Shown here piece after piece: positions 1 through 31,612 of a DNA stretch of 43,773 nucleotides. A program made the translations under genes and the position numbers. The DNA is from Candidatus Faecousia intestinigallinarum (GTDB lineage Bacteria; Bacillota; Clostridia; Oscillospirales; Oscillospiraceae): assembly GCA_018715805.1 (NCBI GenBank), contig DVKX01000059.1:1-43773 (forward strand). The letters run 5' to 3'. Below the pieces are notes generated by a model. The model made no database searches and was not told the origin of the DNA. It was given only the letters and a program-made list of their open reading frames with translations. The stretch's first letter is position 1. The number at the start of each line of letters is the position of its first letter.

Positions 1-136
1 CCGAAAGCGCCACTTCTTCATTTTTTCGCAGTTTTGTCATGGTTCCCGTGGCAATATTCAGATCCTTCCGCAGTGTAGCCGGAGAGATCTCTTTTTCAAT
101 GAGCAGTATCCAAAGCTTTTTATAACTAATCTTCAT
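1..136 (-). CDS. Xre-like HTH regulator, N-terminal part only
   Basis: The reverse strand from an ATG at 136 reads MKISYKKLWILLIEKEIS and continues as a basic helix-turn-helix (STLRK/TGTMTKLRKNEE-like spacing) until it runs off the window edge. About 45 residues are visible. This resembles the short Xre/YozG-type repressors common on Firmicutes mobile elements. A near-consensus promoter with an inverted repeat over its -10 lies directly upstream (179-207), suggesting autoregulation. The codons are AT-richer than in the core genes to the right, consistent with membership of an integrated element extending leftward. The exact family and full length cannot be seen. Confidence 0.6.
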   Translation of the reverse strand, partial: MKISYKKLWILLIEKEISPATLRKDLNIATGTMTKLRKNEEVALS

Positions 137-166: not shown

Positions 167-207
167 CTTCTCAGTACCAGTATATAGTTGTTTTCCTGAG
201 AAGTCAA
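167..207 (-). promoter_or_regulatory. Promoter with overlapping 8-bp inverted repeat for the HTH gene
   Basis: On the minus strand TTGACT (202-207) and TATACT (179-184) are 17 bp apart. The arms CTTCTCAG (167-174) and CTGAGAAG (196-203) form a perfect inverted repeat that brackets the -10 box and touches the -35 box. This is the geometry expected of an autorepressor operator. Operator function is inferred. Confidence 0.65.
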
Positions 208-250
208 GACAGTAAGTTAATTACAAAACATTTTTTCGCAACTTCTTGCG

Positions 251-271
251 AATGCACACAAAAATGCACAC
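251..271. repeat. Short direct repeat AATGCACAC x2
   Basis: AATGCACAC occurs at 251-259 and again at 263-271, a 12-bp period, between the HTH promoter and the 3' end of the rlmD tail. Direct repeats of this kind close to an integration junction can be recombinase arm sites, but two copies of 9 bp could also be chance. Confidence 0.3.
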
Positions 272-341
272 CTAACTAAAGGAGTTTTCTCCTGGATAGG
301 CGTACCGTTATTCTCATAGAACGAGAAGAAAGAGACAACCA

Positions 342-521
342 TCAAATCATCCCAAAGAACTTCAACGCCTCCATAATCGCCGCTTCCTTTTCTGGTGGAC
401 ATTTCGGCTGTTTGGCATTTTCAGACTTTGGCTTGTTATAGTTCTCCCGCTCAATAATGCCATATTTCTGCTTAACCTGGGCAATGTAGAGGGAAGAAAC
501 CTTCAACCCGGTCTGCTGAAC
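342..521 (-). pseudogene. Out-of-frame C-terminal tail of rlmD (58 codons)
   Basis: Directly after the in-frame stop of rlmD, the minus strand carries 58 sense codons in another frame (518-345, stop 344-342). They read QQTGLKVSSLYIAQVKQKYG and onward to KFFGMI. From memory, this is the usual C-terminal extension of RlmD-type proteins in gut Clostridia, so the frame is meaningful. One missing base around 519-521 (gtg-tt-cag, where gtg-Ntt-cag is expected) separates it from rlmD. It is either a real frameshift or a sequencing error. The tail is AT-richer than the rlmD core. Confidence 0.7.
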
Positions 522-1969
522 ACCCGTTCTTTGATCTGACCATATGTGGCATCCTTCTGGAACCCAGACATATCCATATCCTCTAGCGAGAACTCCACAC
601 GAACCTTCTTCGAGTCGATTTCTCCCTTGGAAAGCAAGACAACCGTCTCAACATGGGCGCAGCGGGGGAAGAGGTCGGCGGCCTGGGCGGTGCGCAGGCA
701 ATAGCCTCGCTCCTTCAGCAGCGCCACGTCCCGCGCCAGGGTAGCAGGATCGCAGGACACATACACTACCCGCTGGGGCGACATCCGGGCGATGGCCTCG
801 ATGGCGGCGGCGTTCAGCCCTTTCCGGGGCGGGTCTACGGTGATGACGTCCGGGCGCAGCCCCCGCTGCTCCAGCGCCAGGGCGGCCTCTCCTGCGTCAC
901 CGCAGAAAAATTCCGCGTTCTCCACATGGTTCCGCCGGGCGTTCTCCCGGGCGTCCTCCACCGCCTGGGGCACTACCTCCACGCCGATGACCCGCCCCGC
1001 GGCCTTGGCCATCACCAGGGTGATGGTTCCCGCACCGCAGTACAAGTCCAGCACGGTGTCCGTTGGCGTGATCTGCGCCAGGGCGATGGCGGCGGCGTAG
1101 AGCCGTTCCGCCTGGGCGTGGTTCACCTGGTAAAAGGAACGGGCGGACAGACGAAAGCGCAGACCGCAGAGAGTATCCATAATATAGCCGGGGCCGTAAA
1201 GCGGAATAAACGTCTCCCCCAAAATGGTGTTGCCCCGGCGGGTGTTCACCGACAGCACCAGACTGGTAAAGCCCGGCACCGCCTGGAGGGCGGCGATCAG
1301 CCGCTTCTCCTGGGGGATTTCCCGGCCATTCACCACCAGGCACACCAGAATCTCGCCGCTCACCGCCCCCCGGCGGACGAAAATATGCCGCAGCAGCCCA
1401 CGGTGGGCGGTTTCGTCGTATACGCTGACGCCGCATTGGTTTACATAATCTATCACGATGTCCTTTACCCGGTCGGCTTCTTCCGGCAGGATCCGGCAGC
1501 GGCTGTTGGCCACCACCTTGTGCGTGCCTGCCTGAAAAAAGCCTGCGTACGCTTTGCCATTCCGCACCGCTACTGGATACTGCGCTTTGTTTCGGTAGCC
1601 ATAGCAGCTGGGGGCGGCTAAAATGGGCATTTCCGCCAGATGTTCGCCGCCGATGCGGTTCAGCGCCTGGCGCACCCGTTCCGCCTTCAAGCGGCACTCC
1701 TCTGCGTAGTCCATATGCCAGAAATCGCATCCGCCGCACAGCTTGGCCACGGGACATTCCCGGTTCCGGCGGTGAGGGGAGCGCTCCAGGATCTCCACAA
1801 TTTTTCCCGCCGCCCAGGTCTTCCCCACTTTTTCAACGCGGATGCGGCAAACTTCCCCGGCAATGGCGTTGGGCACGAACACGGCGCAGCCCTGGATTTT
1901 GGCAATGCCCTGCCCATCGGCGGTATAGTCGGAAATCACCGCTTCATATTGCTTCCCCGGCTCGATCAT
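503..1969 (-). CDS. rlmD: 23S rRNA (uracil-5)-methyltransferase RlmD/RumA, with foreign C-terminus and frameshift
   Basis: The product is a 488-residue SAM-dependent uracil-5 methyltransferase of 23S rRNA. An N-terminal TRAM domain (about 1-60) is followed by the iron-sulfur cysteines C72, C78 and C81 and a later NSRC. A Rossmann SAM site (VLDLYCGAGTITL) and the catalytic-cysteine motif VSCDPATLARD follow. The usual protein ends soon after HVETVVLLS (about 635-660). Here a further ~40 residues (KVRVEFSLEDMDMSG...) use AT-rich codons and stop early at 503, while the remaining 58 codons continue in another frame to 342. The ATG overlaps the stop of the upstream GNAT gene by 4 bp, so the two are co-transcribed. 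The catalytic core is complete, so it is probably active. Confidence 0.9.
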   Translation of the reverse strand: MIEPGKQYEAVISDYTADGQGIAKIQGCAVFVPNAIAGEVCRIRVEKVGKTWAAGKIVEILERSPHRRNRECPVAKLCGGCDFWHMDYAEECRLKAERVRQALNRIGGEHLAEMPILAAPSCYGYRNKAQYPVAVRNGKAYAGFFQAGTHKVVANSRCRILPEEADRVKDIVIDYVNQCGVSVYDETAHRGLLRHIFVRRGAVSGEILVCLVVNGREIPQEKRLIAALQAVPGFTSLVLSVNTRRGNTILGETFIPLYGPGYIMDTLCGLRFRLSARSFYQVNHAQAERLYAAAIALAQITPTDTVLDLYCGAGTITLVMAKAAGRVIGVEVVPQAVEDARENARRNHVENAEFFCGDAGEAALALEQRGLRPDVITVDPPRKGLNAAAIEAIARMSPQRVVYVSCDPATLARDVALLKERGYCLRTAQAADLFPRCAHVETVVLLSKGEIDSKKVRVEFSLEDMDMSGFQKDATYGQIKERVFSRPG

Positions 1970-5244: not shown

Positions 5245-5992
5245 TTCCCATGCCCATATGGACGACCGGGCGTTTGACGCTGACCGGGCGGCGCTGCTTT
5301 CCAGCCTGCCGGGGAAAGGCGTGGGGCTGCTGATGAATCCCGGGTGCAGCCTGAGCTCCTCCCGCAGCGCCATCGCGCTGGCGGAGCAATACGATTATAT
5401 CTACGCCGCAGTCGGCTCTCACCCGGACGCGGCGGCGGAGGTGGACGAAGGGGTGCTGGCGGAATACCGCGTCCTTTGCCGCCATCCGAAGGTAAAGGCC
5501 ATCGGGGAGATCGGCCTGGATTACCACTATGAGGACGTGCCCCGGGCGCGGCAGCAGGAAGCCTTCCGGGCACAGCTGGCGCTGGCGCGGGAGGCGGGGC
5601 TGCCCGTCATTGTCCACCAGCGGGACGCCCACCAGGACGCCATGGCCATCCTCCGGGAGTTTCCGGAGGTGAACGGGGTGTTCCACTGCTACTCCGGCTC
5701 GCCGGAGATGGCGCGGCAGCTGGTGGAAATGGGGTGGTATATTGGTTTTACCGGGGTGCTGACCTTCAAAAATGCCCGTAAGGCGGTGGAGACTGCCGCC
5801 AGTATCCCCTTGGAGCGGATACTCCTGGAGACGGACTGCCCCTATATGGCGCCGGAGCCATTTCGGGGCAGGCGGAACGACCCCAGCTACCTTTACCGCA
5901 TGGCGGAGCGGCTGGGGCAGATCCGGGGCATCTCCCCGGAGGCGGCGGCCGACGCCACCATGGAAAACGCCAGAAGGCTGTACCGCCTGTAG
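5234..5992 (+). CDS. tatD: TatD family metal-dependent hydrolase
   Basis: A 252-residue amidohydrolase-fold protein of the TatD DNase family, with 3'-5' exonuclease activity in characterised members. The metal-binding signatures are visible: DSHAH (H6, H8), GEIGLDYHY, VIVHQRDAH, FHCYSG and the late LLETDCPYMAP. It starts 11 bp inside the PPTase gene, and GGAGGAG lies in the coding region just before the ATG. Length and motifs are normal. Confidence 0.9.
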   Translation: MLFDSHAHMDDRAFDADRAALLSSLPGKGVGLLMNPGCSLSSSRSAIALAEQYDYIYAAVGSHPDAAAEVDEGVLAEYRVLCRHPKVKAIGEIGLDYHYEDVPRARQQEAFRAQLALAREAGLPVIVHQRDAHQDAMAILREFPEVNGVFHCYSGSPEMARQLVEMGWYIGFTGVLTFKNARKAVETAASIPLERILLETDCPYMAPEPFRGRRNDPSYLYRMAERLGQIRGISPEAAADATMENARRLYRL

Positions 5993-6020
5993 CGGCTCGC
6001 CGGCAGAGAGAGGAGACGCC

Positions 6021-7547
6021 ATGGAAGCGATTGTCGAATTTTCTCATATCACCATGGATTTTCCCGGAGTGCGCGCCAATGACGACGTGTCTCTTTCCAT
6101 TCGGAGGGGGGAGATCTTCGCCCTGGTGGGGGAAAACGGCGCGGGAAAATCCACCTTGATGAACATACTTTACGGCATCCACACCCCTACGGCGGGCAGC
6201 GTGACCATTCACGGCAAGCCCGTGGTTCGATTTGACCCCAAGGCGGCCATCGCCGCCGGGGTGGGCATGGTGCACCAGCATTTCATGCTGGTGCCCAGCT
6301 TTACAGTAACGGAAAATATCGTCCTGAGCCGGGAGCCCAGGAAGGGTATATTCTGCGACCGGCGGGAAGCCCGGCGGCAGGTGGAAGCCCTGAGCCGGGA
6401 ATACGGCCTGGAGGTGGAACCGGACAGCCGGGTGCGGGATCTCAGCGTGGGGCAGCAGCAGCGGGTGGAGATCCTGAAAACCCTGTACCGGGGGGCGGAG
6501 ATCCTGATTCTGGACGAGCCCACTGCCGTCCTTACCCCCCAGGAGACCAACGAGCTTTTTACGGTGCTCCGCCGAGTGGTGCGGGAGCGGGGTATGACGG
6601 TGATCCTCATTACCCATAAGCTGTACGAGGTCGCCGCCGTCTCCCAACGGGTGGGCGTCATGCGCCGGGGACGGCTGGTGGGCGTGGCGGATACCGCCTC
6701 CGTGAGCCAGCGGCAGTTGGCGGGGATGATGGTGGGGCGGGAGATGCAGCCCACCGCCCCCCGGCAGCCCCTCCGGCTGGGGGAGGAGAAAGTCCATATT
6801 CAGAATCTTTGCGTGGCCAATTCCCGGGGGCTGCCCGCAGTGCGGGATCTGTCCCTGACCCTGCGCGCCGGGGAGATATTGGGCATTGCCGCTGTGGAGG
6901 GCAACGGCCAGAGCGAGCTGCTGGAGGCCATCGCCGGAATGCGGCCGTTCCAGGGGGAGATCCAGGTGAACGGACGCAGCATCCGGGGACTTTCCCCGGG
7001 TCAGGTGCGGTCACTGGGACTTGCCCATGTGCCGGAGGATCGCCTGCGCACCGGCGTGGATCCGGAGGCCAGCGTGGCGGAGAACCTGGTGGCGGGGCGG
7101 CACAGAGCGCCGCGCTTTGCCCGCTTCGGCGTCCATCTGCGGAAGAAGGCCATCCGAGAATACGCGGAGGGGCTGTACCGGGCGTTCGACATCCGGGGCG
7201 CCGGGGCGGACACAGAGGCGGGGAGCCTCTCCGGCGGCAATATGCAGAAGACGGTCATCGCCCGGGAGATGTCCGCCGGGGCGGAGGTGCTGCTCATTGC
7301 CCAGCCCACCCGGGGCGTGGATATTGGCGCGGTGGAGTTTATCCACAGCCAGATTCTCGCCCAGCGGGACGGCGGCGCGGCGATCCTCCTCTCCAGCGCG
7401 GATCTGGACGAAATACTGACCCTGTCCGACCGGATCATCACTCTTTATGAGGGGCGCGTCACCGGGGAGTATACCGGGGAATTTTCCAAGACGGAGCTTG
7501 GTCTGGGCATGACCGGCGGCGGAAAGGAGGCAACCCATGAAGCGTAG
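6021..7547 (+). CDS. Nucleoside-type ABC importer, double ATPase (NupO/YufO-like)
   Basis: A 508-residue fused ATPase of the BMP/sugar-nucleoside importer class. Half 1 has an intact Walker A (GENGAGKST, 37-45), signature LSVGQQQRVE (141-150) and Walker B ILILDE. Half 2 has a degenerate P-loop (VEGNGQSELL, no GKS) but an LSGGNMQK signature, as is normal for this family. The ATG at 6021 follows AGAGAGGAG. It overlaps the first permease by 11 bp. No substrate-binding lipoprotein gene accompanies it. Nucleoside specificity is inferred from family resemblance. Confidence 0.85.
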   Translation: MEAIVEFSHITMDFPGVRANDDVSLSIRRGEIFALVGENGAGKSTLMNILYGIHTPTAGSVTIHGKPVVRFDPKAAIAAGVGMVHQHFMLVPSFTVTENIVLSREPRKGIFCDRREARRQVEALSREYGLEVEPDSRVRDLSVGQQQRVEILKTLYRGAEILILDEPTAVLTPQETNELFTVLRRVVRERGMTVILITHKLYEVAAVSQRVGVMRRGRLVGVADTASVSQRQLAGMMVGREMQPTAPRQPLRLGEEKVHIQNLCVANSRGLPAVRDLSLTLRAGEILGIAAVEGNGQSELLEAIAGMRPFQGEIQVNGRSIRGLSPGQVRSLGLAHVPEDRLRTGVDPEASVAENLVAGRHRAPRFARFGVHLRKKAIREYAEGLYRAFDIRGAGADTEAGSLSGGNMQKTVIAREMSAGAEVLLIAQPTRGVDIGAVEFIHSQILAQRDGGAAILLSSADLDEILTLSDRIITLYEGRVTGEYTGEFSKTELGLGMTGGGKEATHEA

Positions 7548-8631
7548 GAATTTAGGAAGCTATTTCCTCTCCCTGGGGCTGTCCATTCTCCTGGCGCTGG
7601 GGGTGGGTGCGGCCATCATGGCCGTCACAGGCTACCACCCCTGGGAGGCTTACCGGGCGCTGTTCCAGGGGGCTACCGGCTGCGGGGAGCTGGGCGATTT
7701 GCCCAGTCTCCTGACCCAGCGGCAGTTCGGCAATACGGTGGAATACGCCATGGTGCTCTTTCTCACGGGTCTGGCCTGCGCCCTGGGCGCCAGAGCCGGC
7801 ATCTTCAATGTGGGCGGCGAGGGGCAGCTCTATCTGGGGGCCATCGTCTCCGCCTACATTGGCGTGGTGCTGGCGGGACTTTCTCCCTGGGTGGTGATTC
7901 CGGCGGCGGCGCTGGGCGCCATGGCTGTGGGGGCGTTTTACGCCTGGATTCCCGGCGTTTTGAAGGTGAAATGCAAGGTCAACGAGGTCATCACCACCAT
8001 CATGCTGAACTCCGTGGCCATCTTTTTCTGCGCGTACCTCTCCAACGGCCCCTGGAAGACCGCCAATCCCAACCGGGTGTCCGGCACCGACCCTCTGGAG
8101 GCGGTCTACCGCTTTCCCCAGCTGATCCGCGGCTCCAATCTCACCAGCGCCATTTTTGCTTCGGCGGTGATCGCCCTGCTGGTGTGGTATGTAATGAGCC
8201 GCACCACCACAGGCTTTGAAATGAAGCTCACCGGGCACAATCCCCGCTTCGCCAGATTTTTGGGGCTGAACGTGGACAATATTGTGATCGCCGCCATGAG
8301 CGTCTCCGGAGCGATCTGCGGCCTGGTGGGGATGTTTCAGGTCTACGGCGTCAAGGGACACTACCAGGACGGCATCAGCAATGAATACTATTTCGACGGC
8401 CTGCTGGTGGCCATGATCATGGGCTACCGTCCGGTGGGCATCATCGTCATGAGCTTTTTCTTCGCCTTTTTGAAGGTGGGGGCGGCGGGCATGGAGCTGA
8501 ACGCCGGAGTGCCCGGGGAACTTTACCGCATCATCCAGTCGGTGGTTATCTTCTTCCTGGCCGCCGAGGGAGGCGTGAAGGCTCTGCTGGCCAGAAAGAA
8601 AACGAAAAAGGAGGCCGCCAACCATGGGTGA
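7537..8631 (+). CDS. Nucleoside-type ABC permease (NupP/YufP-like)
   Basis: A 364-residue polytopic permease of the BPD_transp_2 family with about ten hydrophobic helices. It carries the family signature segment KCKVNEVITTIMLN. GGAAAGGAGG precedes the ATG inside the ATPase gene (11-bp overlap), and the 3' end overlaps the second permease by 8 bp. It is paired with the 8624-9529 permease as one half of the channel. Confidence 0.85.
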   Translation: MKRRNLGSYFLSLGLSILLALGVGAAIMAVTGYHPWEAYRALFQGATGCGELGDLPSLLTQRQFGNTVEYAMVLFLTGLACALGARAGIFNVGGEGQLYLGAIVSAYIGVVLAGLSPWVVIPAAALGAMAVGAFYAWIPGVLKVKCKVNEVITTIMLNSVAIFFCAYLSNGPWKTANPNRVSGTDPLEAVYRFPQLIRGSNLTSAIFASAVIALLVWYVMSRTTTGFEMKLTGHNPRFARFLGLNVDNIVIAAMSVSGAICGLVGMFQVYGVKGHYQDGISNEYYFDGLLVAMIMGYRPVGIIVMSFFFAFLKVGAAGMELNAGVPGELYRIIQSVVIFFLAAEGGVKALLARKKTKKEAANHG

Positions 8632-9529
8632 TATTTTGACGGCGGGACTCCTGCGGCAGATGCTCCGCTCTGCCACCCCGGTGGCGCTGGCCGCCATGGG
8701 CGGCGCCATGACCGAGCACGCGGGGGTCATGAACATCGGTATGGACGGCATGATCCTCATTGGCGCTTTCGCGGCGGTGGCGGTGAGCGCCGTGACCGGC
8801 TCCGCCTGGCTGGGCGTTTTGGCGGCCATCGCCGCAGGGATCCTGGTGGGGATGTTCTTCGCGCTGTTTGTGGTAAAGTTCAAGAGCGATGAGTTTATCA
8901 TCGGCACGGCGCTGAACATCTTCGCCGGGGGGCTGACAGTGTTCCTGCTGGGGGCAATTTTCGGCGTGCGGGGCACCCTCCGTACCCAGGCGGGGCTGCC
9001 TGCGGTGGAGATCCCTGTTTTGCGGGACATCCCCTTTGTGGGGGAGGTGCTCAGCGGCAATTCTCTGTTCGTTTATCTGACGGTGCTGCTGGCCTGGGGG
9101 ATGTGGGCGTTGGTATACCGCACCCCCTGGGGCTATCACCTGCGGGCGGCGGGGGAGCATCCCGGCGCGCTGCGGACTGCGGGCATCAGTCCGGAGGGAC
9201 GGCAGTGGCAGGCTTCCATCCTCTGCGGGGCGCTGTGCGGTCTGGCAGGGGCGCAGCTTGCCCTGGGCAATGTGTCCATGTTCTCCGAGGGCATGAGCAA
9301 TTCCCGGGGCTATGTGGCTTTCGCCTGCGTGATCTTCGGCGCGGCCAACCCGGGGAAGGCATATCTGGCGGCGCTGATGTTCGGCTTCTTCGACGCTCTG
9401 GGCTACCGGCTTCAGGAATACCAGATCAGCGCCAACCTGACCTCCATGATCCCCTATCTCATCACCGTGGCCATGATGGTGTATGTCGTGCTGCGCGGAG
9501 AGCGCCGCCGGGCGGCCGGCAGAGCGTAG
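8624..9529 (+). CDS. Nucleoside-type ABC permease (NupQ/YufQ-like)
   Basis: A 301-residue BPD_transp_2 permease, the shorter partner in the usual two-permease arrangement. Typical segments include AAMGGAMTEHAGVMNIGMDG at the N-terminus and RAAGEHPGALRTAGIS in the cytoplasmic loop. It is the last gene of the run. No convincing terminator is visible before the gap promoter at 9614. Confidence 0.85.
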   Translation: MGDILTAGLLRQMLRSATPVALAAMGGAMTEHAGVMNIGMDGMILIGAFAAVAVSAVTGSAWLGVLAAIAAGILVGMFFALFVVKFKSDEFIIGTALNIFAGGLTVFLLGAIFGVRGTLRTQAGLPAVEIPVLRDIPFVGEVLSGNSLFVYLTVLLAWGMWALVYRTPWGYHLRAAGEHPGALRTAGISPEGRQWQASILCGALCGLAGAQLALGNVSMFSEGMSNSRGYVAFACVIFGAANPGKAYLAALMFGFFDALGYRLQEYQISANLTSMIPYLITVAMMVYVVLRGERRRAAGRA

Positions 9530-16855: not shown

Positions 16856-17197
16856 ATGCTTGCTTCCCGGATTGCGGCGCTGCGGCGCAGCGCCGGTATG
16901 AGTCAGGCGGAGTTGGCGCGAAAGCTGCGGATCAGCCCCAGTGCTGTGGGGATGTACGAGCAGGGGCGGCGAGAGCCGTCGGCGGATATTTTGGTGAATA
17001 TGGCGCAGGTGTTTGGCGTGAGCACGGATTTTTTGCTCACCGGCAAGGCGGAGCATCCCCCGGATCAGGAGGCGCTGACCGCCGCCCTGCTGGAGACGCT
17101 GGAAAGCGCGGAATCCCGCCTGGCCGCCCGCCGGGGCGAGACGCTGTCCCGGCAGGAGCTGGCGGCGCTGCTGGCGGCGCTGCTGATGGAGGCTTGA
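16856..17197 (+). CDS. Xre family HTH regulator
   Basis: A 113-residue protein with an N-terminal Cro/C1 helix-turn-helix (about 1-62): MSQAELARKLRISPSAVGMYE, then GRREPSADILVNMAQVFGV and DFLLTGK. The C-terminal 45 residues are Ala/Leu/Glu-rich and probably helical, for dimerisation. The ATG at 16856 follows AGAGGTGG; the earlier ATG at 16814 would lie within the promoter. It diverges from the zinc-ribbon unit and precedes tadA by 48 bp. Its targets are unknown; the divergent unit is the obvious candidate. Confidence 0.85.
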   Translation: MLASRIAALRRSAGMSQAELARKLRISPSAVGMYEQGRREPSADILVNMAQVFGVSTDFLLTGKAEHPPDQEALTAALLETLESAESRLAARRGETLSRQELAALLAALLMEA

Positions 17198-17203
17198 CGG
17201 CGG

Positions 17204-17237
17204 CTCCTTTTTGGGGTAAGATGACCCCAAAAGGAGG
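17204..17237 (+). promoter_or_regulatory. Hairpin burying the tadA ribosome-binding site
   Basis: The 14-base arm at 17204-17217 (CTCCTTTTTGGGGT) pairs with 17224-17236 (ACCCCAAAAGGAG). The stem has 13 bp, one bulged T and a 6-nt loop. The right arm contains almost all of the tadA Shine-Dalgarno sequence AAGGAGG. No T-tract follows on either strand, so it is not a normal terminator. It should hinder tadA initiation unless melted by translating ribosomes, a ligand or a protein. Confidence 0.65.
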
Positions 17238-17245
17238 CGAAGCGT

Positions 17246-17731
17246 ATGGAGGATCAGGATTTTATGCGCCAGGCGCTGGCGCTGGCCGGAGAAGCGGCGG
17301 CAATGGGAGAAGTGCCGGTGGGCTGCGTGATAGTGCGCGGAGGAAAAATTGTAGGCCGGGGGCGGAACTGCCGGGAGGAGCGCAAAAGCGCCCTGGCGCA
17401 CGCGGAGATCGCCGCCATCCAGGAGGCGTGCCGGACGCTGGGCGGCTGGCGGCTGTGGGATTGCACGCTGTATGTTACCCTGGAGCCGTGCCCCATGTGC
17501 GCCGGCGCCATTCTTCACGCCCGGATTCCCCGGGTGGTATACGCGGCCAAGGATGAAAAAGGCGGTGCCTGCGGGTCGGTGTGCGATTTGTTCGCCATGG
17601 ACTTCAATCACCACCCCAAGGTGGAAGCGGGGCTTCTGGAGGCGGAAAGCGCCGCGCTGCTCCAGGACTTTTTCCGGCAGCTGCGGCTCACCCTGCGCGG
17701 GCGACCCCGGTGGCGCAGGCCGGAGGGATAA
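17246..17731 (+). CDS. tadA: tRNA-specific adenosine deaminase TadA
   Basis: This 161-residue zinc deaminase converts the wobble adenosine 34 of tRNA-Arg(ACG) to inosine. The catalytic site is HAEIAAI (H52, E54) with PCPMC (C82, C85). GEVPVGCVIV and ARIPRVVYAAKDEKGGACGS are family-typical. The C-terminus is rich in Arg for tRNA binding. The AAGGAGG site at 17231-17237 lies in a hairpin. spoIIP follows after 45 bp. Confidence 0.93.
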   Translation: MEDQDFMRQALALAGEAAAMGEVPVGCVIVRGGKIVGRGRNCREERKSALAHAEIAAIQEACRTLGGWRLWDCTLYVTLEPCPMCAGAILHARIPRVVYAAKDEKGGACGSVCDLFAMDFNHHPKVEAGLLEAESAALLQDFFRQLRLTLRGRPRWRRPEG

Positions 17732-26369: not shown

Positions 26370-27368
26370 ATGTTTCAGGCGATGATTGAGACGCTGAAGG
26401 CAAATCCCCGGAAGATCGTGTTTACCGAGGGCTCGGATAAGCGGATTCTGGAGGCGGCCGCGCGGCTGAAGAAAGACGGCTTCCTCACCCCCATCCTGGT
26501 GGGCAATGTGGAAGAGGTTCAGGCTGCGGCCAAGGCCGGTAATTTTGATATTGCAGGACTGGAGATCCTTGACCCCGCCGCTTACCCCGGCATGGACGAG
26601 ATGGTGGAGAAGATGGTGGAGCTGCGCAAGGGCAAGATGAGTCCCGAGGACTGCCGCAAGGCGCTGTCCAAGGGCAACTATTTCGGCACCATGCTGGTGA
26701 AGATGGGTTACGCCGACTCCCTGCTGGGCGGCGCCACCTATTCCACGGCGGATACCGTGCGACCCGCTCTGCAGCTGGTAAAGACTAAGAAGGGCGCGCA
26801 TCTGGTTTCCTCCTGCTTCATTTTGGTGCGGGGCGAGGAAAAGCTGGCCATGGGCGACTGCGCCATCAACCTGAGTTATGAGGACAGCGTGGACAAGGAC
26901 GGCAACGTGACCCTGTCCGCCGCCCAGAAGCTGGCGGAGGTGGCCGTTGAGACTGCCAAGACCGCCAAGGTCTTTGGCATCGACCCCAAGGTGGCTATGC
27001 TGAGCTTCTCCACCAACGGCTCCGGCAAGGGCGGCACGGTGCAGCTGAGCCACGACGCCACCATCGTTGCCAAGGAGATGGCGCCGGAGCTGGCCATCGA
27101 CGGCGAGATGCAGTTTGACGCCGCTGTTGCCCCGGAGGTGGGGCAGCTGAAGTTCCCCGGTTCTCCGGTGGCGGGCTATGCCAATACCTTCATCTTCCCC
27201 ACCATTGAGGCCGGCAACATCGGCTATAAGATCGCCCAGCGCCTGGGCGGCTTCGAGGCCTACGGCCCCATCCTGCAGGGACTGGCTGCGCCCATCAACG
27301 ACCTGTCCCGGGGCTGCAATGCCGACGAGGTATACAAAATGGCCATTATTACGGCCGCATTGGTGTAA
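26370..27368 (+). CDS. pta: Phosphate acetyltransferase
   Basis: A 332-residue enzyme that interconverts acetyl-CoA and acetyl phosphate in acetate fermentation. Typical segments are RKIVFTEGSDKRILEAA, the central GGATYSTADTVRPALQ, MLSFSTNGSGKG, PELAIDGEMQFDAA and the C-terminal ARGCNADEVY-like SRGCNADEVYKMAIITA. The ATG at 26370 follows AAGGAG; the earlier ATG at 26352 precedes that site. It is the short form, without regulatory N-terminal domains. ackA is not adjacent. It is monocistronic, with its own promoter and terminator. Confidence 0.95.
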   Translation: MFQAMIETLKANPRKIVFTEGSDKRILEAAARLKKDGFLTPILVGNVEEVQAAAKAGNFDIAGLEILDPAAYPGMDEMVEKMVELRKGKMSPEDCRKALSKGNYFGTMLVKMGYADSLLGGATYSTADTVRPALQLVKTKKGAHLVSSCFILVRGEEKLAMGDCAINLSYEDSVDKDGNVTLSAAQKLAEVAVETAKTAKVFGIDPKVAMLSFSTNGSGKGGTVQLSHDATIVAKEMAPELAIDGEMQFDAAVAPEVGQLKFPGSPVAGYANTFIFPTIEAGNIGYKIAQRLGGFEAYGPILQGLAAPINDLSRGCNADEVYKMAIITAALV

Positions 27369-27380
27369 GCATATTCCATG

Positions 27381-27415
27381 CTGTTCCCGCCGGATCTCCG
27401 GCGGGAACAGTTTTC
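27381..27415 (+). terminator. Terminator of pta
   Basis: A 13-bp stem, CTGTTCCCGCCGG (27381-27393) and CCGGCGGGAACAG (27398-27410), loop ATCT, then TTTT. Confidence 0.85.
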
Positions 27416-27457
27416 CCCAATGGGGATAAACATTACAAAAAATTCACAAACTACCCA

Positions 27458-27510
27458 TTGACAAATGGGCGGCAGGAGGATATAATATATCTGTAAATAA
27501 GAATTATTCT
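27458..27510 (+). promoter_or_regulatory. perR promoter with Fur/Per-type dyad
   Basis: TTGACA (27458-27463), a 17-bp spacer and a consensus TATAAT (27481-27486). AGAATTATTCT (27500-27510), inside an AT-rich stretch right at the start region, resembles a Per/Fur box, so autoregulation is likely. Confidence 0.75.
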
Positions 27511-27523
27511 CAAGGAGGGCATC

Positions 27524-27928
27524 ATGGACGCTACTTGCAAGCAATTCCGCAAGCGAAACGCCATTCTTGCCTGTCTGCGGCAGAGCCGGGAGCATCCCTC
27601 CGCCGAGCGCGTGTACGAGCTGCTGAAGCAGGATTCCCCGGACATCTCCCTGGCCACCGTCTACCGAAACCTGGCGCTTTTTAAGAAGCAGGGCGTCGTC
27701 CGCAGCGTGGGCACTGTGAACGGCGTGGAGCGGTTCGACGGGGACGTCAGCCAGCATGCCCATTTTATCTGCCGCGTCTGCGGCCAGGTGACGGATCTTG
27801 CGAATCTGTCGCTGCCGGAAGCGCTGTTCGCTTCCCTGAAAGCATCCGGCGCCCAGCCGGAGCGCTACAGCTTGTGCCTCACCGGCTTGTGCCGGAACTG
27901 TCAAAACAAAGGTGGTGAAGCGGAATGA
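27524..27928 (+). CDS. perR: Fur-family regulator, PerR-like
   Basis: A 134-residue metalloregulator. The winged helix (about 10-75) includes [24 protein letters not shown] (H78, H80) lies in the regulatory metal site. The structural zinc site is C83/C86 (CRVC) and C123/C126 (CRNC). It is co-transcribed with a rubredoxin-like and a reverse-rubrerythrin gene, which supports a peroxide role (PerR) over iron uptake (Fur). AAGGAGG precedes the ATG. Its stop overlaps the next ATG (ATGA). Confidence 0.85.
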
Positions 27929-28041
27929 AGAAGTTTGTGTGCACCGTTTGCGGCTATGTCTACGAGGGGGACGAGCTGCCGGAGGATTTCGAGTGCCCCC
28001 TGTGCGGCGTTGGCCCCGACCAGTTTGAAGAAGAAGCGTAA
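27925..28041 (+). CDS. Mini-rubredoxin (38 residues)
   Basis: A very small rubredoxin-like protein, [20 protein letters not shown] then [18 protein letters not shown]. Four cysteines (C6, C9, C24, C27) should bind one iron. Its ATG overlaps the perR stop, and GGTGG precedes it. About 23 of its 36 aligned residues equal the N-terminal rubredoxin domain of the following reverse rubrerythrin, with identical cysteine spacing, so a partial duplication is likely. At 38 residues it is shorter than classical rubredoxins (about 52). It is probably an electron donor to the peroxidase. Confidence 0.8.
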
Positions 28042-28047
28042 TTCCCT

Positions 28048-28062
28048 GGGCGCGCGGCGCCC
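28048..28062. repeat. GC-rich palindrome before the reverse rubrerythrin
   Basis: GGGCGC-gcg-GCGCCC (28048-28062) is followed by CTTACAT. It resembles the pta leader palindrome (GGGCGC-t-GCGCCC followed by TACAT). It may be a common operator or a simple leader hairpin. Confidence 0.45.
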
Positions 28063-28095
28063 TTACATTTGAAATTCTATTGGAGGTAAATTATC

Positions 28096-28689
28096 ATGAA
28101 GAAATTTGTTTGCCCTGTCTGCGGTTATGTTTACGAGGGTGAGTCCATTCCCGAGGGCTTCAAGTGCCCTGTGTGCAAGGTGGACGGCTCCAAGTTCAAG
28201 GAGATGACCGATGCCAACAAGCTGGCCGCTGAGCATACTTTTGGCGTGTATGAGACTACTGTGAAGAACAACCCCGACATTTCCGAGGAGGACAAGGCGT
28301 ATATCCTGGAGCAGCTGATGGCCAACTTCAACGGCGAGTGCGGCGAAGTGGGTATGTATCTGTGCATGGCGCGCATTGCCCACCGGGAGGGCTACCCCGA
28401 GATCGGCCTGTACTGGGAGAAGGCCGCCTATGAGGAGGCGGAGCACGCCGCCAAGTTTGCGGAGCTGCTGGGCAGCACCCTGGAGCCGAACATGACCAAT
28501 TCCACCAAGAAGAACCTGGCCTGGCGGGTGGACTGCGAGTTCGGCGCGACCCAGGGCAAGGTAGATCTGGCCGTCTGCGCCAAGAAGAACGGCCTGGACG
28601 CCATCCACGACACGGTGCATGAGATGGCTCGGGACGAGGCTCGCCACGGCAAGGCGCTGAAGGGTCTGCTGGAGCGCTACTTTAAGTAA
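28096..28689 (+). CDS. Reverse rubrerythrin (peroxidase)
   Basis: A 197-residue protein with the rubredoxin domain first (C6, C9, C24, C27) and the four-helix di-iron domain after it. The helices carry [36 protein letters not shown] and [14 protein letters not shown], the E/ExxH ligands. This domain order defines reverse rubrerythrins of clostridia, which reduce H2O2 and O2 with NADH-derived electrons. TTGGAGG precedes the ATG. It is the last gene of the perR unit. Confidence 0.93.
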
Positions 28690-28758
28690 GCATTCCCCAA
28701 GCCCAAAAGGGAGCGGCTTCGATAGCTGCCCATAGAACAGAATAAGAAGGTTTTCAGG

Positions 28759-28790
28759 AAACGGCGTAGCTTTGGCTATGCCGTTTCTCT
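28759..28790 (+). terminator. Terminator of the perR unit
   Basis: AAACGGCGTAGC (28759-28770), loop TTTG and GCTATGCCGTTT (28775-28786), a 12-bp stem with one G-U pair, then CTCTATT. The T-tract is weak. Confidence 0.6.
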
Positions 28791-28879
28791 ATTCGCTGGT
28801 CAAATAATTTTCCCTTGGGGCAATTGCCGCCGCTTCACAGTCTTTTCACTGGAATAAAAATATTATCCCCAGGGGGGGC

Positions 28880-28907
28880 TTGCCAAGACTTATTCAAAAA
28901 GTATAAT
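28880..28907 (+). promoter_or_regulatory. Promoter of the oligopeptide importer operon
   Basis: TTGCCA (28880-28885), a 16-bp spacer and TATAAT (28902-28907), about 70 bp before the lipoprotein start. Confidence 0.7.
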
Positions 28908-28974
28908 ACACTTGAAAGCAAACTGATGCGCATATATAGGGCTTTGCAAAACCAAAAAGAAAGGAAAACCTTCC

Positions 28975-30534
28975 ATGAAAAAGGTTATAAGGAAACTGCC
29001 GGCATTGCTTTTGGCGCTCACAATGTGTCTGAGCCTTGCCGCCTGCGCAGGCAATGATCCTGGCGCCTCCGCCGCGCCGACCACGCTGGTGTATGGCAGC
29101 GGAGATTATACCTCCATCAACCCAATTATGAATGAGCACTGTGAAATTAAATACCTGCTGTTCGATGGTCTTATGGCTCGTGATGGCGACGGCAATCTTG
29201 TGCCTGCGCTGGCCGAATCGTATGACTATGATGAGGCAACCATGACCTACACATTCAAGCTGCGGGATGATGTTCAATGGCATGATGGCCAGCAGTTTAC
29301 GGCCGATGATGTGAAATTTACCATAGAGGCGATCATGGATCCGAACAACGGCTCGGAAAATGCGCCAAACTATGAAGAAATCAGCCAGATCAACATTCTG
29401 GGGGATTATGACGTCGCGTTTGTTCTCACAGAGCCGAATGTGGCTTTCCTGGACTACATGACCATGTCGATCATGCCGGAGCATCTGCTCCAGGGCGAGG
29501 ATATGTGGGAATCTGATTTCTTCAGAAATCCGGTTGGCACCGGCCCCTACAAGCTGGAGAGCTGGGATGTGGGTCAGGCGATCACAATGGTGAAAAATGA
29601 AGAATATTTCGCGGGCGCTGCCAATATCGACACCATTATCTTCAAAATTGTTACGGACGATAGCGCCAAGGCGCTGCAGCTGCAAAGCGGAGAGCTTGAC
29701 CTTGCGCAGGTAGCGCCCAAGGATGTGGCTGCCTTTGAAGGCAAGGACGGTTTTACCGTTTATGATATGACAACCTCCGATTATCGCGGGATCCTCTATA
29801 ACTTCGGCAACGAGTATTGGCAGGAAAATGCTGACCTTATCCCGGCTATCAGCTATGCCATTGACAAGCAGGCGATTTTGGATGCCGTTGTACTCGGCTA
29901 CGGCGAGGTTGCTTACAGCCCCATACAGCGCAACATCTATCATTATGAAGGCGTTGAAAAATATGCGTACGACCCGGAGAAGGCTGCGCAGGTGATGACC
30001 GATGCAGGCTGCACGAAGGATGCGGATGGTTACTGGACGCGAAACGGCGAACGCATTGGCTTTGTCCTCAGCGCCACGCCCGGCGACCAGGTGCGTATCG
30101 ACATGGCGCAGATAGCCGCCCAGCAGCTTCAGGAGTTTGGCTTGGATGTGACGGCGGATGTTCCGGCGGAAGGGATTGACTGGGGCGGTCAATACGCCTG
30201 CATCATCGGCTGGGGATCTCCCTTCGATGCGGATGACCATACCTATAAGGTCTTTGGCACTGGTAAGGGCGCCAACTATTCCGGCTACTCCAACGCTTTG
30301 GTTGACCAGTATCTCACGGAAGCACGTCAAACTTTCGATACGGATGAACGTGCGGAAGCCTACAAAAATTTCCAGATCGAACTGGCAAAAACGCCTGCAT
30401 ATACGTTCTTCTGCTATATCGATGCCATGTACGTGGGGAATCAGGCGATTCAGGGAATCGACGCGGATACCGTTCTGGGTCATCATGGCGTAGGCATTTT
30501 CTGGAATGTCTGCGACTGGACTATGGAAAGCTGA
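28975..30534 (+). CDS. Peptide-type ABC importer, substrate-binding lipoprotein
   Basis: A 519-residue family-5 extracytoplasmic binding protein. The signal peptide ends in the lipobox LAAC (C24 is lipidated). VPALAESYDYDEATMTYTFK and LRDDVQWHDGQQFTADDVKF are family hallmarks. It would capture peptides or a similar ligand (some relatives bind nickel or dyes) for the channel encoded downstream. AAAGGAAAA is a modest ribosome site. Gene composition is clearly less GC-rich than that of pta or rubrerythrin beside it. A long intercistronic hairpin follows. Confidence 0.9.
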   Translation: MKKVIRKLPALLLALTMCLSLAACAGNDPGASAAPTTLVYGSGDYTSINPIMNEHCEIKYLLFDGLMARDGDGNLVPALAESYDYDEATMTYTFKLRDDVQWHDGQQFTADDVKFTIEAIMDPNNGSENAPNYEEISQINILGDYDVAFVLTEPNVAFLDYMTMSIMPEHLLQGEDMWESDFFRNPVGTGPYKLESWDVGQAITMVKNEEYFAGAANIDTIIFKIVTDDSAKALQLQSGELDLAQVAPKDVAAFEGKDGFTVYDMTTSDYRGILYNFGNEYWQENADLIPAISYAIDKQAILDAVVLGYGEVAYSPIQRNIYHYEGVEKYAYDPEKAAQVMTDAGCTKDADGYWTRNGERIGFVLSATPGDQVRIDMAQIAAQQLQEFGLDVTADVPAEGIDWGGQYACIIGWGSPFDADDHTYKVFGTGKGANYSGYSNALVDQYLTEARQTFDTDERAEAYKNFQIELAKTPAYTFFCYIDAMYVGNQAIQGIDADTVLGHHGVGIFWNVCDWTMES

Positions 30535-30540
30535 TTGAGG

Positions 30541-30578
30541 CGCACAACAGGGGGCTGGAAACAGCCCCTTATTGTGTG
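30541..30578 (+). promoter_or_regulatory. Intercistronic hairpin between binding protein and ATPase
   Basis: The arms at 30541-30557 and 30562-30578 form a 17-bp stem (core GGGGCTG/CAGCCCC) with one C/A mismatch, two G-U pairs and a GAAA tetraloop. No T-tract follows. It probably stabilises the upstream message or partly blocks read-through, so that the binding protein is made in excess. Confidence 0.7.
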
Positions 30579-30598
30579 TCTGAGGTGGGAAGATAACT

Positions 30599-31612
30599 AT
30601 GTCAGAATTACTTGAAATCAAAAATCTGTCTGTCAGCATATTTTCTCCCAGCGGAGAAGTGGAAGCTGTCAGAGATGTCAGCCTCACGCTGCGCAGAGGC
30701 GAAATTCTCGCTGTGGTTGGGGAATCCGGCTGCGGAAAGAGCATTCTGTGTAAGTCCATCATGAAGCTGCTTCCAAAGCATGCGAAAATCCAGCAGGGCA
30801 GCATCATTGCAGACGGTACAGACATTACCAACTATACGGAACGGGATATGGTCAAGCTGCGCGGGAAATTGTTCTCTATGATCTTTCAGGATCCAATGAC
30901 CGCGCTGGATCCTACCATGACCATTGGCGCGCAGATTGCCGAGGCAATACTGGTACATAATAAAAAACTGCCCAAGGAAGAGGTTCGTCGCAGGGTAATC
31001 GCGCTAATGGAACTGGTAGGTATCCAACAGCCCAGAGAACGGTACAAACTCTATCCCTATAATTTTTCGGGCGGGATGCGGCAGCGAAGCGTTATGGCCA
31101 TGGCGCTGGCCGGCGATCCGAAAATCCTTCTGGCAGACGAACCGACCACAGCGCTGGATGTGACGATTCAGGCGCAGATACTGGATCTTCTCCGGGACAT
31201 CCAGAAAAAGCTGGGCACGGCAACGATTTTAGTTTCCCACGATTTAGGGGTTGTGGCGCGGGCGGCCGACCGCGTTGCCATTATGTATGCCGGTAAAATC
31301 GTTGAGATCGGCACGGCGGAGGAAGTATATTACGATCCCCGGCATCCTTATACATGGGGGCTGCTGCAAGCGCTGCCTGCACTCTCCAGGGGGAGAAAAG
31401 AGCTGCGCGCCATCCCCGGTATGCCGCCCACCTTGATTGCCCCCCCAAAAGGGGACGCCTTCGCCTGTCGGAATGAATACGCATTGGCAATTGATTATGT
31501 ACAAGAGCCGCCCATGTTCCGAATCTCGGATACCCATTATGCAGCCACATGGTTGTTAGATCCAAGGGCGCCAAAGATAAAATATCCGATGGGAGGCGGA
31601 AAGAATGCTTGA
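30599..31612 (+). CDS. Peptide-type ABC importer ATPase (OppD-like)
   Basis: A 337-residue ATPase with Walker A GESGCGKS, Q-loop IFQDPMTALDPTM, signature FSGGMRQRSVMAMAL and Walker B ILLADEPTTALD, then VSHDLGV. The C-terminal oligopeptide-family segment is present in loose form (AIPGMPPTLIAPPKGDAFAC) with fewer cysteines than usual. AGGTGGGAAG precedes the ATG. It overlaps the OppF-like gene by 8 bp. Confidence 0.9.
   Translation: MSELLEIKNLSVSIFSPSGEVEAVRDVSLTLRRGEILAVVGESGCGKSILCKSIMKLLPKHAKIQQGSIIADGTDITNYTERDMVKLRGKLFSMIFQDPMTALDPTMTIGAQIAEAILVHNKKLPKEEVRRRVIALMELVGIQQPRERYKLYPYNFSGGMRQRSVMAMALAGDPKILLADEPTTALDVTIQAQILDLLRDIQKKLGTATILVSHDLGVVARAADRVAIMYAGKIVEIGTAEEVYYDPRHPYTWGLLQALPALSRGRKELRAIPGMPPTLIAPPKGDAFACRNEYALAIDYVQEPPMFRISDTHYAATWLLDPRAPKIKYPMGGGKNA

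Follow-up and report, generated by a model that had tools for sequence, protein, structure and literature searches.

The rlmD gene at the left edge of contig C37 of Candidatus Faecousia intestinigallinarum changes character close to its 3' end, raising the question of whether that end still belongs to the host or marks the junction of an integrated mobile element. The window, meaning the whole stretch of 43,773 nucleotides analyzed here, is the entire contig, one of 99 in a genome of 2.09 Mb. The features that bear on the question lie at its left end:

503–1969, minus strand: full rlmD frame (from reading of the open reading frame)
656–1969, minus strand: host body of rlmD up to the junction, encoding 23S rRNA uracil-C5-methyltransferase (Pfam PF05958 and TRAM)
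639–652, minus strand: probable att core GTTGAGACGGTTGT, inside the HVETVV codons (start of module homology at 652–658; bases shared by attL and attR in relatives)
506–628, minus strand: foreign tail, residues 1–41, read in the rlmD frame (open reading frame, tail profile search)
518–519, minus strand: single-base frameshift in the tail sequence (aligned against five close relatives)
345–518, minus strand: remaining 58 residues of the tail, in another frame (tail profile, 105 bits)
235–252, minus strand: inverted repeat TTCGCAA-N4-TTGCGAA, operator-like or terminator-like (repeat and terminator scoring)
179–207, minus strand: sigma-70-like promoter match before the HTH gene (2 in the region versus 0.8 expected in shuffles)
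2–136, minus strand: Cro/C1-type HTH gene, first 45 residues, cut by the contig end (PF13443, E 1.1e-7)

The junction at the end of rlmD

RlmD proteins of congeners are 66–77% identical to that of the window, and a fused homologue, L055, is called as TIGR00479 rumA/RlmD. The motif HVETVVLLS is encoded at 629–655 (minus strand) and foreign sequence comes next: at about 639–655 the gene passes from GC-rich host DNA into a foreign tail of about 95 codons that reaches 342. The initial annotation described GC-rich rlmD codons to the right of about 655 and AT-rich ones leftward, and 200-base windows bear this out, with a GC content of 0.61–0.72 over 701–1400, 0.36–0.46 over 1–600, and a change near 650. 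Because the 300 bp past rlmD also turn AT-rich (GC 0.33–0.59) in 20 congener loci classed as tail-less, the drop is weak evidence and not diagnostic by itself.

Homology gives a sharper boundary. In 16 of 80 related loci, where RlmD itself is diverged, the DNA match to the tail starts abruptly at query 343–349, equivalent to window 652–658 (4 of the 16 also match separately within the rlmD body). It ends at window 341–367, at or near the tail stop codon, in 14 of these loci, and the contig end falls inside the tail in the remaining two. The abrupt start agrees with the earlier placement of an att core near 635–660, and in both L086 and L070, attL and attR have 11 bp equivalent to the core in common. 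A foreign C-terminus of about 100 extra residues had also been proposed. The foreign sequence after HVETVVLLS stands; the length does not, as the stop of the rlmD frame lies at 503–505, 41 residues past the motif. Relative to five aligned close relatives, the window is one base short at about 518/519, and because this frameshift cuts the tail, RlmD gains 41 foreign residues instead of about 100. The missing base may be a sequencing or assembly error.

Beyond the tail lies the start of the Cro/C1-type HTH gene, likely the first cargo gene of the element. It had been described as a truncated gene with its own operator. The gene is present, and its homologues are 68–83 aa long; decay is not indicated, since the contig end cuts the gene. 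The inverted repeat at 235–252 is likewise present and is a candidate operator that also scores as terminator-like. By eye, a TTCGCAAGAAGTTGCGAA-like inverted repeat occurs upstream of the homologous HTH genes in L150, L032 and L048, is weaker in L107, and is not seen in L104. The homologues sit after the tail or the rlmD end in L032, L048, L104 and L107, and one lies inside the element of L100 (L150), deeper than the tail end. In L032 the homologue is followed by zinc-ribbon/SPFH genes, in L107 by GmrSD-like genes and in L104, one gene further on, by a PAPS-reductase-domain protein. Because the genes after the HTH differ among these three loci, the missing cargo of the window's element cannot be named.

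The tail as an exchangeable module

Among 80 fetched loci (the best 80 of 279, enriched in tails because one search pattern, EDMDMSGF, comes from the tail), 42 carry the tail fused in frame, 24 have no tail, and 14 are too short, leaving 66 informative. Congener and Faecalibacterium loci were retrieved with tail-less queries: 29 congener loci divide into 4 with a tail, 20 without and 5 too short, and 30 Faecalibacterium loci into 10, 17 and 3. A comparison with relatives lacking the extension, suggested at the outset, accordingly finds no tail at 20 of the 24 informative congener loci and at 17 of the 27 informative Faecalibacterium loci, with the caveat that a few tail-less entries resemble broken tails (in L049, L053 and L107 the match to the query extends into the tail, and the congeners L191 and L196 have tail-like ends of 20–25 residues). 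Most tail-less congeners (16 of 20) stop 2–7 residues beyond the matched stretch; the other four stop at 20, 21, 25 and 117. In congener L189 a different extension, 117 residues long and unrelated to the tail, is fused to the RlmD C-terminus at this position. The RlmD–tail joint of the window itself recurs in congener L179/L210. Across 12 congener stretches 3' of rlmD (L204–L212 and L214–L217), no gene is common to any two except a short frame in L204 and L209; because congeners share almost no gene after rlmD, this right flank of the site is highly variable.

A wider search through 393 genomes from the class finds a tail match in 58, a count that includes the window's own genome and some broken matches. 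Thirty loci from this search were inspected, and 17 have the tail in an RlmD frame, 2 in the frame of a large serine recombinase (LSR), and 11 in neither. All 11 of these orphan tails keep core-like residues, L230 only partly, being cut. The tail also has a composition and a history of its own. In tail-bearing loci the 450 bp past the motif mostly have a GC content of 0.39–0.46, whatever that of the upstream host DNA (0.34–0.72), with exceptions such as L085 (0.29) and L096 (0.55). The tails of the window and L055 share 94% DNA identity, and the whole proteins 54%; two pairs of loci have at least 95% tail DNA identity with only 49–55% RlmD identity. Tail DNA identity shows no correlation with RlmD identity over 741 pairs from 39 tail-bearing loci (rho −0.06, p 0.11).

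The LSRs indicate where the tail comes from. In viral contigs L108, L110, L112 and L114, and in L149, an LSR is fused in frame to the tail through the core. The first of two neighboring LSRs ends in the tail domain in the viral contigs L110, L112 and L113 (93–106 bits), as does an LSR of L247 (104 bits); a VET-like triplet before the domain is kept in L113, and no clear core is seen in L110, L112 or L247. The circular plasmid pAPRE01 (L115) has an attP-like arrangement of LSR, core and tail without rlmD, in which LSR and tail are read in different frames. This conjugative plasmid carries two tail copies with cores of their own (5948–6255 and 8558–8836), one of them directly behind an LSR gene. 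Taken together, these arrangements identify the tail as a C-terminal LSR domain, conserved and unnamed, which can be exchanged owing to where attP lies.

Substitution patterns in 23 tails of equal length give a median pS of 0.69, a pN of 0.14 and a finite dN/dS of 0.083, the last a rough value with pS near saturation, and none of the 253 pairs has pN equal to or above pS. The tail is thus under strong purifying selection, which from these comparisons could act in either home, RlmD or LSR. AlphaFold2 modeling of the L055 tail with 36 sequences (mean pLDDT 72.9, pTM 0.57) places helices at residues 29–40, 46–55 and 79–91, predicting with moderate confidence a helical fold; that this is a helix-turn-helix is a guess. 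A Foldseek comparison of the model with the PDB gives a best E value of 3.8, and a PDB sequence profile search with the tail gives 0.051. NCBIfam has no family for the two tails scanned alone, and the best Pfam match, to ribosomal L23 (E 0.0086, in 7 of 36 members), is not convincing.

Elements in relatives and the empty site

LSRs were searched for in 30 genomes, 29 of which gave a match, and the seven with a match downstream on the rlmD contig were opened, leaving stretches L158–L160 out of the element analysis. The seven elements span 10–21 kb and follow one plan: rlmD, core, tail, variable cargo, backbone and LSR, with a single serine integrase beside the far end. From core to LSR end they measure 10.4 kb in L086, 11.3 kb in L106 and 15.95 kb in L058, and from coordinates about 15 kb in L055 (whose rlmD end lies in the original locus, outside the fetched element stretch), 18 kb in L070 and 21 kb in L100. 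The last LSR codons span a second core and lead into an end that is short and different, except in the first LSR of L149, from the genome of L083, which runs into a second tail and not the host end.

The insertion itself can be read from a pair of Faecalibacterium genomes. G491 is empty, its RlmD ending in ...HCECVLLMSKAQ, and G508 is occupied. In G491, the 378 bp that lead to the site correspond to G508 936–1313 (87%), and the 258 bp from the site onward to G508 17153–17410 (91%); 8 positions are common at the junction, and 15.8 kb is inserted at the core. The native RlmD end of G508 is displaced behind the LSR and now reads ...VECVLLMSKAQ. A reciprocal exchange of the 3' ends of rlmD and LSR is therefore seen in this pair, and attR ends in the seven elements. 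G491/G508 is the only clean empty/occupied pair: the empty G489 and G506 showed no flank match to occupied genomes, and the flank of G507 matched only inside other places.

Because the G491/G508 insertion falls exactly at the site, the window can be read as holding the attL of an rlmD-integrated element. Its left edge is very probably the attL of an integrative element inserted by an LSR into the HVETV codons of rlmD, with the body of the element to the left of position 1. The original proposal that an element extends leftward and replaces the rlmD 3' end is supported by the module boundary, the tail-less congeners, the seven elements and the empty/occupied pair, all of them evidence from relatives.

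The attachment sites share little sequence. The longest attL/attR match is 5–6 bp in L058, L106 and L100, partly outside the core. Ten Clostridia LSR ends with a core read it in the RlmD frame; L115 reads it in another frame, and L232 probably does likewise. LSRs that carry no core also occur near rlmD (G010 at 25.6 kb, four matches in G493 and one on the other strand of G508), so not every nearby LSR belongs to the rlmD site.

In Faecalibacterium G010, about 82 kb is inserted between rlmD and a G491-type flank (C18 370634–469000; L149 and L284–L287). Counted from the rlmD start, that flank is reached at 84 kb, and the intervening DNA matches LSRs at 10.0, 25.6 (weak), 71.7 and 83.3 kb (partial); several elements are probably stacked there. 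The Streptococcus suis phages offer a related picture: in YS162 rum and tail are still fused, and in YS387 the annotated rum ends at 1356 with a tail and its own core about 4.7 kb downstream. This pattern fits a nested insertion.

Cargo varies among the elements and is often related to restriction or defense. Examples are type I restriction-modification, a SIR2-HerA pair alongside a type IIG-like enzyme, a ResIII/HNH protein and, by eye, ABC-transporter-looking genes. Pfam assigns L149 a sigma-70-like factor, an HTH protein, a DUF5906/D5-like protein, LSR domains and a Mob_Pre relaxase; L155 also has Mob_Pre, and L157 has a CHC2 primase zinc finger. No conjugation or mobilization module is visible in the window. 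A first scan for defense cargo was biased, its nine proteins having been picked for a cargo-like look. A less selective comparison took ORFs of at least 150 aa starting within 6 kb downstream and searched them with PADLOC (E ≤ 1e-15). The 87 ORFs of 28 tail loci matched 184 families and the 88 ORFs of 22 tail-less loci 36, figures that are not counts of systems since PADLOC models overlap. Up to 6 ORFs in tail loci match each type I methyltransferase model and 6 match one specificity model, and no type I restriction model is among the 25 families listed for tail-less loci, a set made impure by L107 with its partial tail homology, HTH gene and GmrSD-like cargo.

The initial annotation pointed to the rest of the genome for an integrase and a second junction copy. 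The contig ends 342 bp into the element, and the window's own assembly yielded neither. The 24-base junction has no second copy within 3 mismatches; such a pattern search is unable to catch a typical attR, because the junctions of relatives share only 5–11 exact bases. No LSR in the 2.09 Mb exceeds 27% identity to an element-type LSR, L150-type SPFH cargo finds no better match than 27% identity (E 1.9e-5), and a scripted reading of eight stretches that contain LSR or tyrosine-integrase genes turned up no core. Contig C73 of the same genome (G000) has three adjacent serine-recombinase frames at 26584–30648 (L166 6584–10648), without an rlmD core, which adjoin a truncated tyrosine integrase and a methylase-like fragment. 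This trio is not assigned to the rlmD site.

Competing explanations and significance

In the related elements, attP lies inside the LSR gene, just before the stretch encoding the C-terminal domain of about 95 residues. Recombination with rlmD moves this domain in frame onto RlmD, and the LSR receives the host's short native RlmD end in exchange; excision would reverse the exchange. We infer the same arrangement in the window's strain, with the HTH regulator and further cargo to the left of position 1.

A residual scar is an improbable alternative, in which an element brought the tail and the HTH gene and was then lost or decayed. The frameshifted tail, the common orphan tails away from RlmD and LSR frames (11 of 30 inspected loci) and the lack of an element-type LSR in 2.09 Mb would all suit such a history. 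The contig, however, stops 342 bp into foreign DNA, so absence itself was not observed, and five relatives have a homologous HTH gene in a like setting followed by cargo genes. Draft bins often miss mobile elements, which also counts against this possibility. An assembly chimera at the contig end is very unlikely. The junction does lie within 660 bp of that end, and several public contigs likewise stop inside the tail, but the same joint recurs in congener L179/L210, in the strain-titled contigs L055, L058, L083 and L106, and on long contigs of 1.19 Mb (L100) and 2.78 Mb (G508), and it falls at the att core. Finally, a native RlmD extension or read-through without any mobile element, to which AT-rich DNA in tail-less congeners and the extension of L189 could be fitted, has practically no standing against coding selection on the tail, tails on LSRs, inheritance decoupled from RlmD and the empty/occupied pair, evidence that refutes such an origin in relatives.

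An attL junction of an LSR-inserted element in rlmD belongs with reported systems. The claim that rumA/rlmD is an integration site whose 3' end is replaced holds for streptococcal ICEs in passages of PMC4701971. These describe single-serine-integrase ICEs in rumA with attR in the integrase gene, 2–21 bp repeats, and a reciprocal exchange of the 3' parts of rumA and integrase that changes the frame of both proteins. Parts of PMC5357655 and PMC5704250 describe IMEs in streptococcal rumA, also with a single serine integrase. The elements of the relatives resemble both in target gene, single LSR, att site in the integrase gene, 3'-end exchange and, in some of them, short repeats. For the streptococcal ICEs, however, the passages describe a frame change and mention no domain, whereas the Clostridia elements move a conserved LSR domain in frame. 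CTn5 of Clostridioides difficile, whose move into rumA of strain 630-delta-erm is cited in passages of PMC4701971, is alike as a serine-integrase element in clostridial rumA and different as a Tn1549-type ICE. In phage Mx8 (cited in the same passages) and in mycobacteriophage BPs with its integration-dependent immunity (PMC4557955), the att site lies within an integrase or repressor gene of the phage, so that integration alters the C-terminus of that protein. In these accounts the phage protein itself is changed, whereas in the Clostridia elements the removed part is also appended to a host enzyme. Serine-integrase IMEs bearing Mob_Pre are alike in the LSR, Mob_Pre and replication-like genes of L149 and the Mob_Pre of L155, and the Clostridia elements differ from them in defense-rich, variable cargo beside the tail.

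Titles and abstract openings in the literature searched, a coverage that mostly leaves out subscription journals, contain none on the tail domain, the in-frame exchange, or Clostridia rlmD elements with restriction cargo. The attL-type junction is genuine and of a published class. What is new, judged from sequence comparison, is that RlmD receives a conserved integrase domain in frame, a feature spread over gut Clostridia and accompanied by variable cargo.

By analogy with phage Mx8, loss or gain of the tail may change the activity or direction of the LSR. Tentatively, this could amount to a state switch, in which the LSR of the excised circle, with its tail, would be integration-competent, the integrated LSR with the host end would differ in activity or direction, and RlmD with the tail would keep or alter its rRNA methylation. 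The regulatory domain of the element's integrase would then be stored on a housekeeping enzyme of the host. If the tail domain matters, the frameshift in the window would leave the LSR of an excised circle with a broken end.

The in-frame exchange makes the dependence of serine integrase behavior on integration state testable. As a marker of rlmD-type junctions and LSRs, the tail domain offers a way to find such elements, which carry variable, often restriction or defense cargo and are apparently able to stack. On many RlmD proteins of gut Clostridia, the integrase-derived extension could pass for a native domain.
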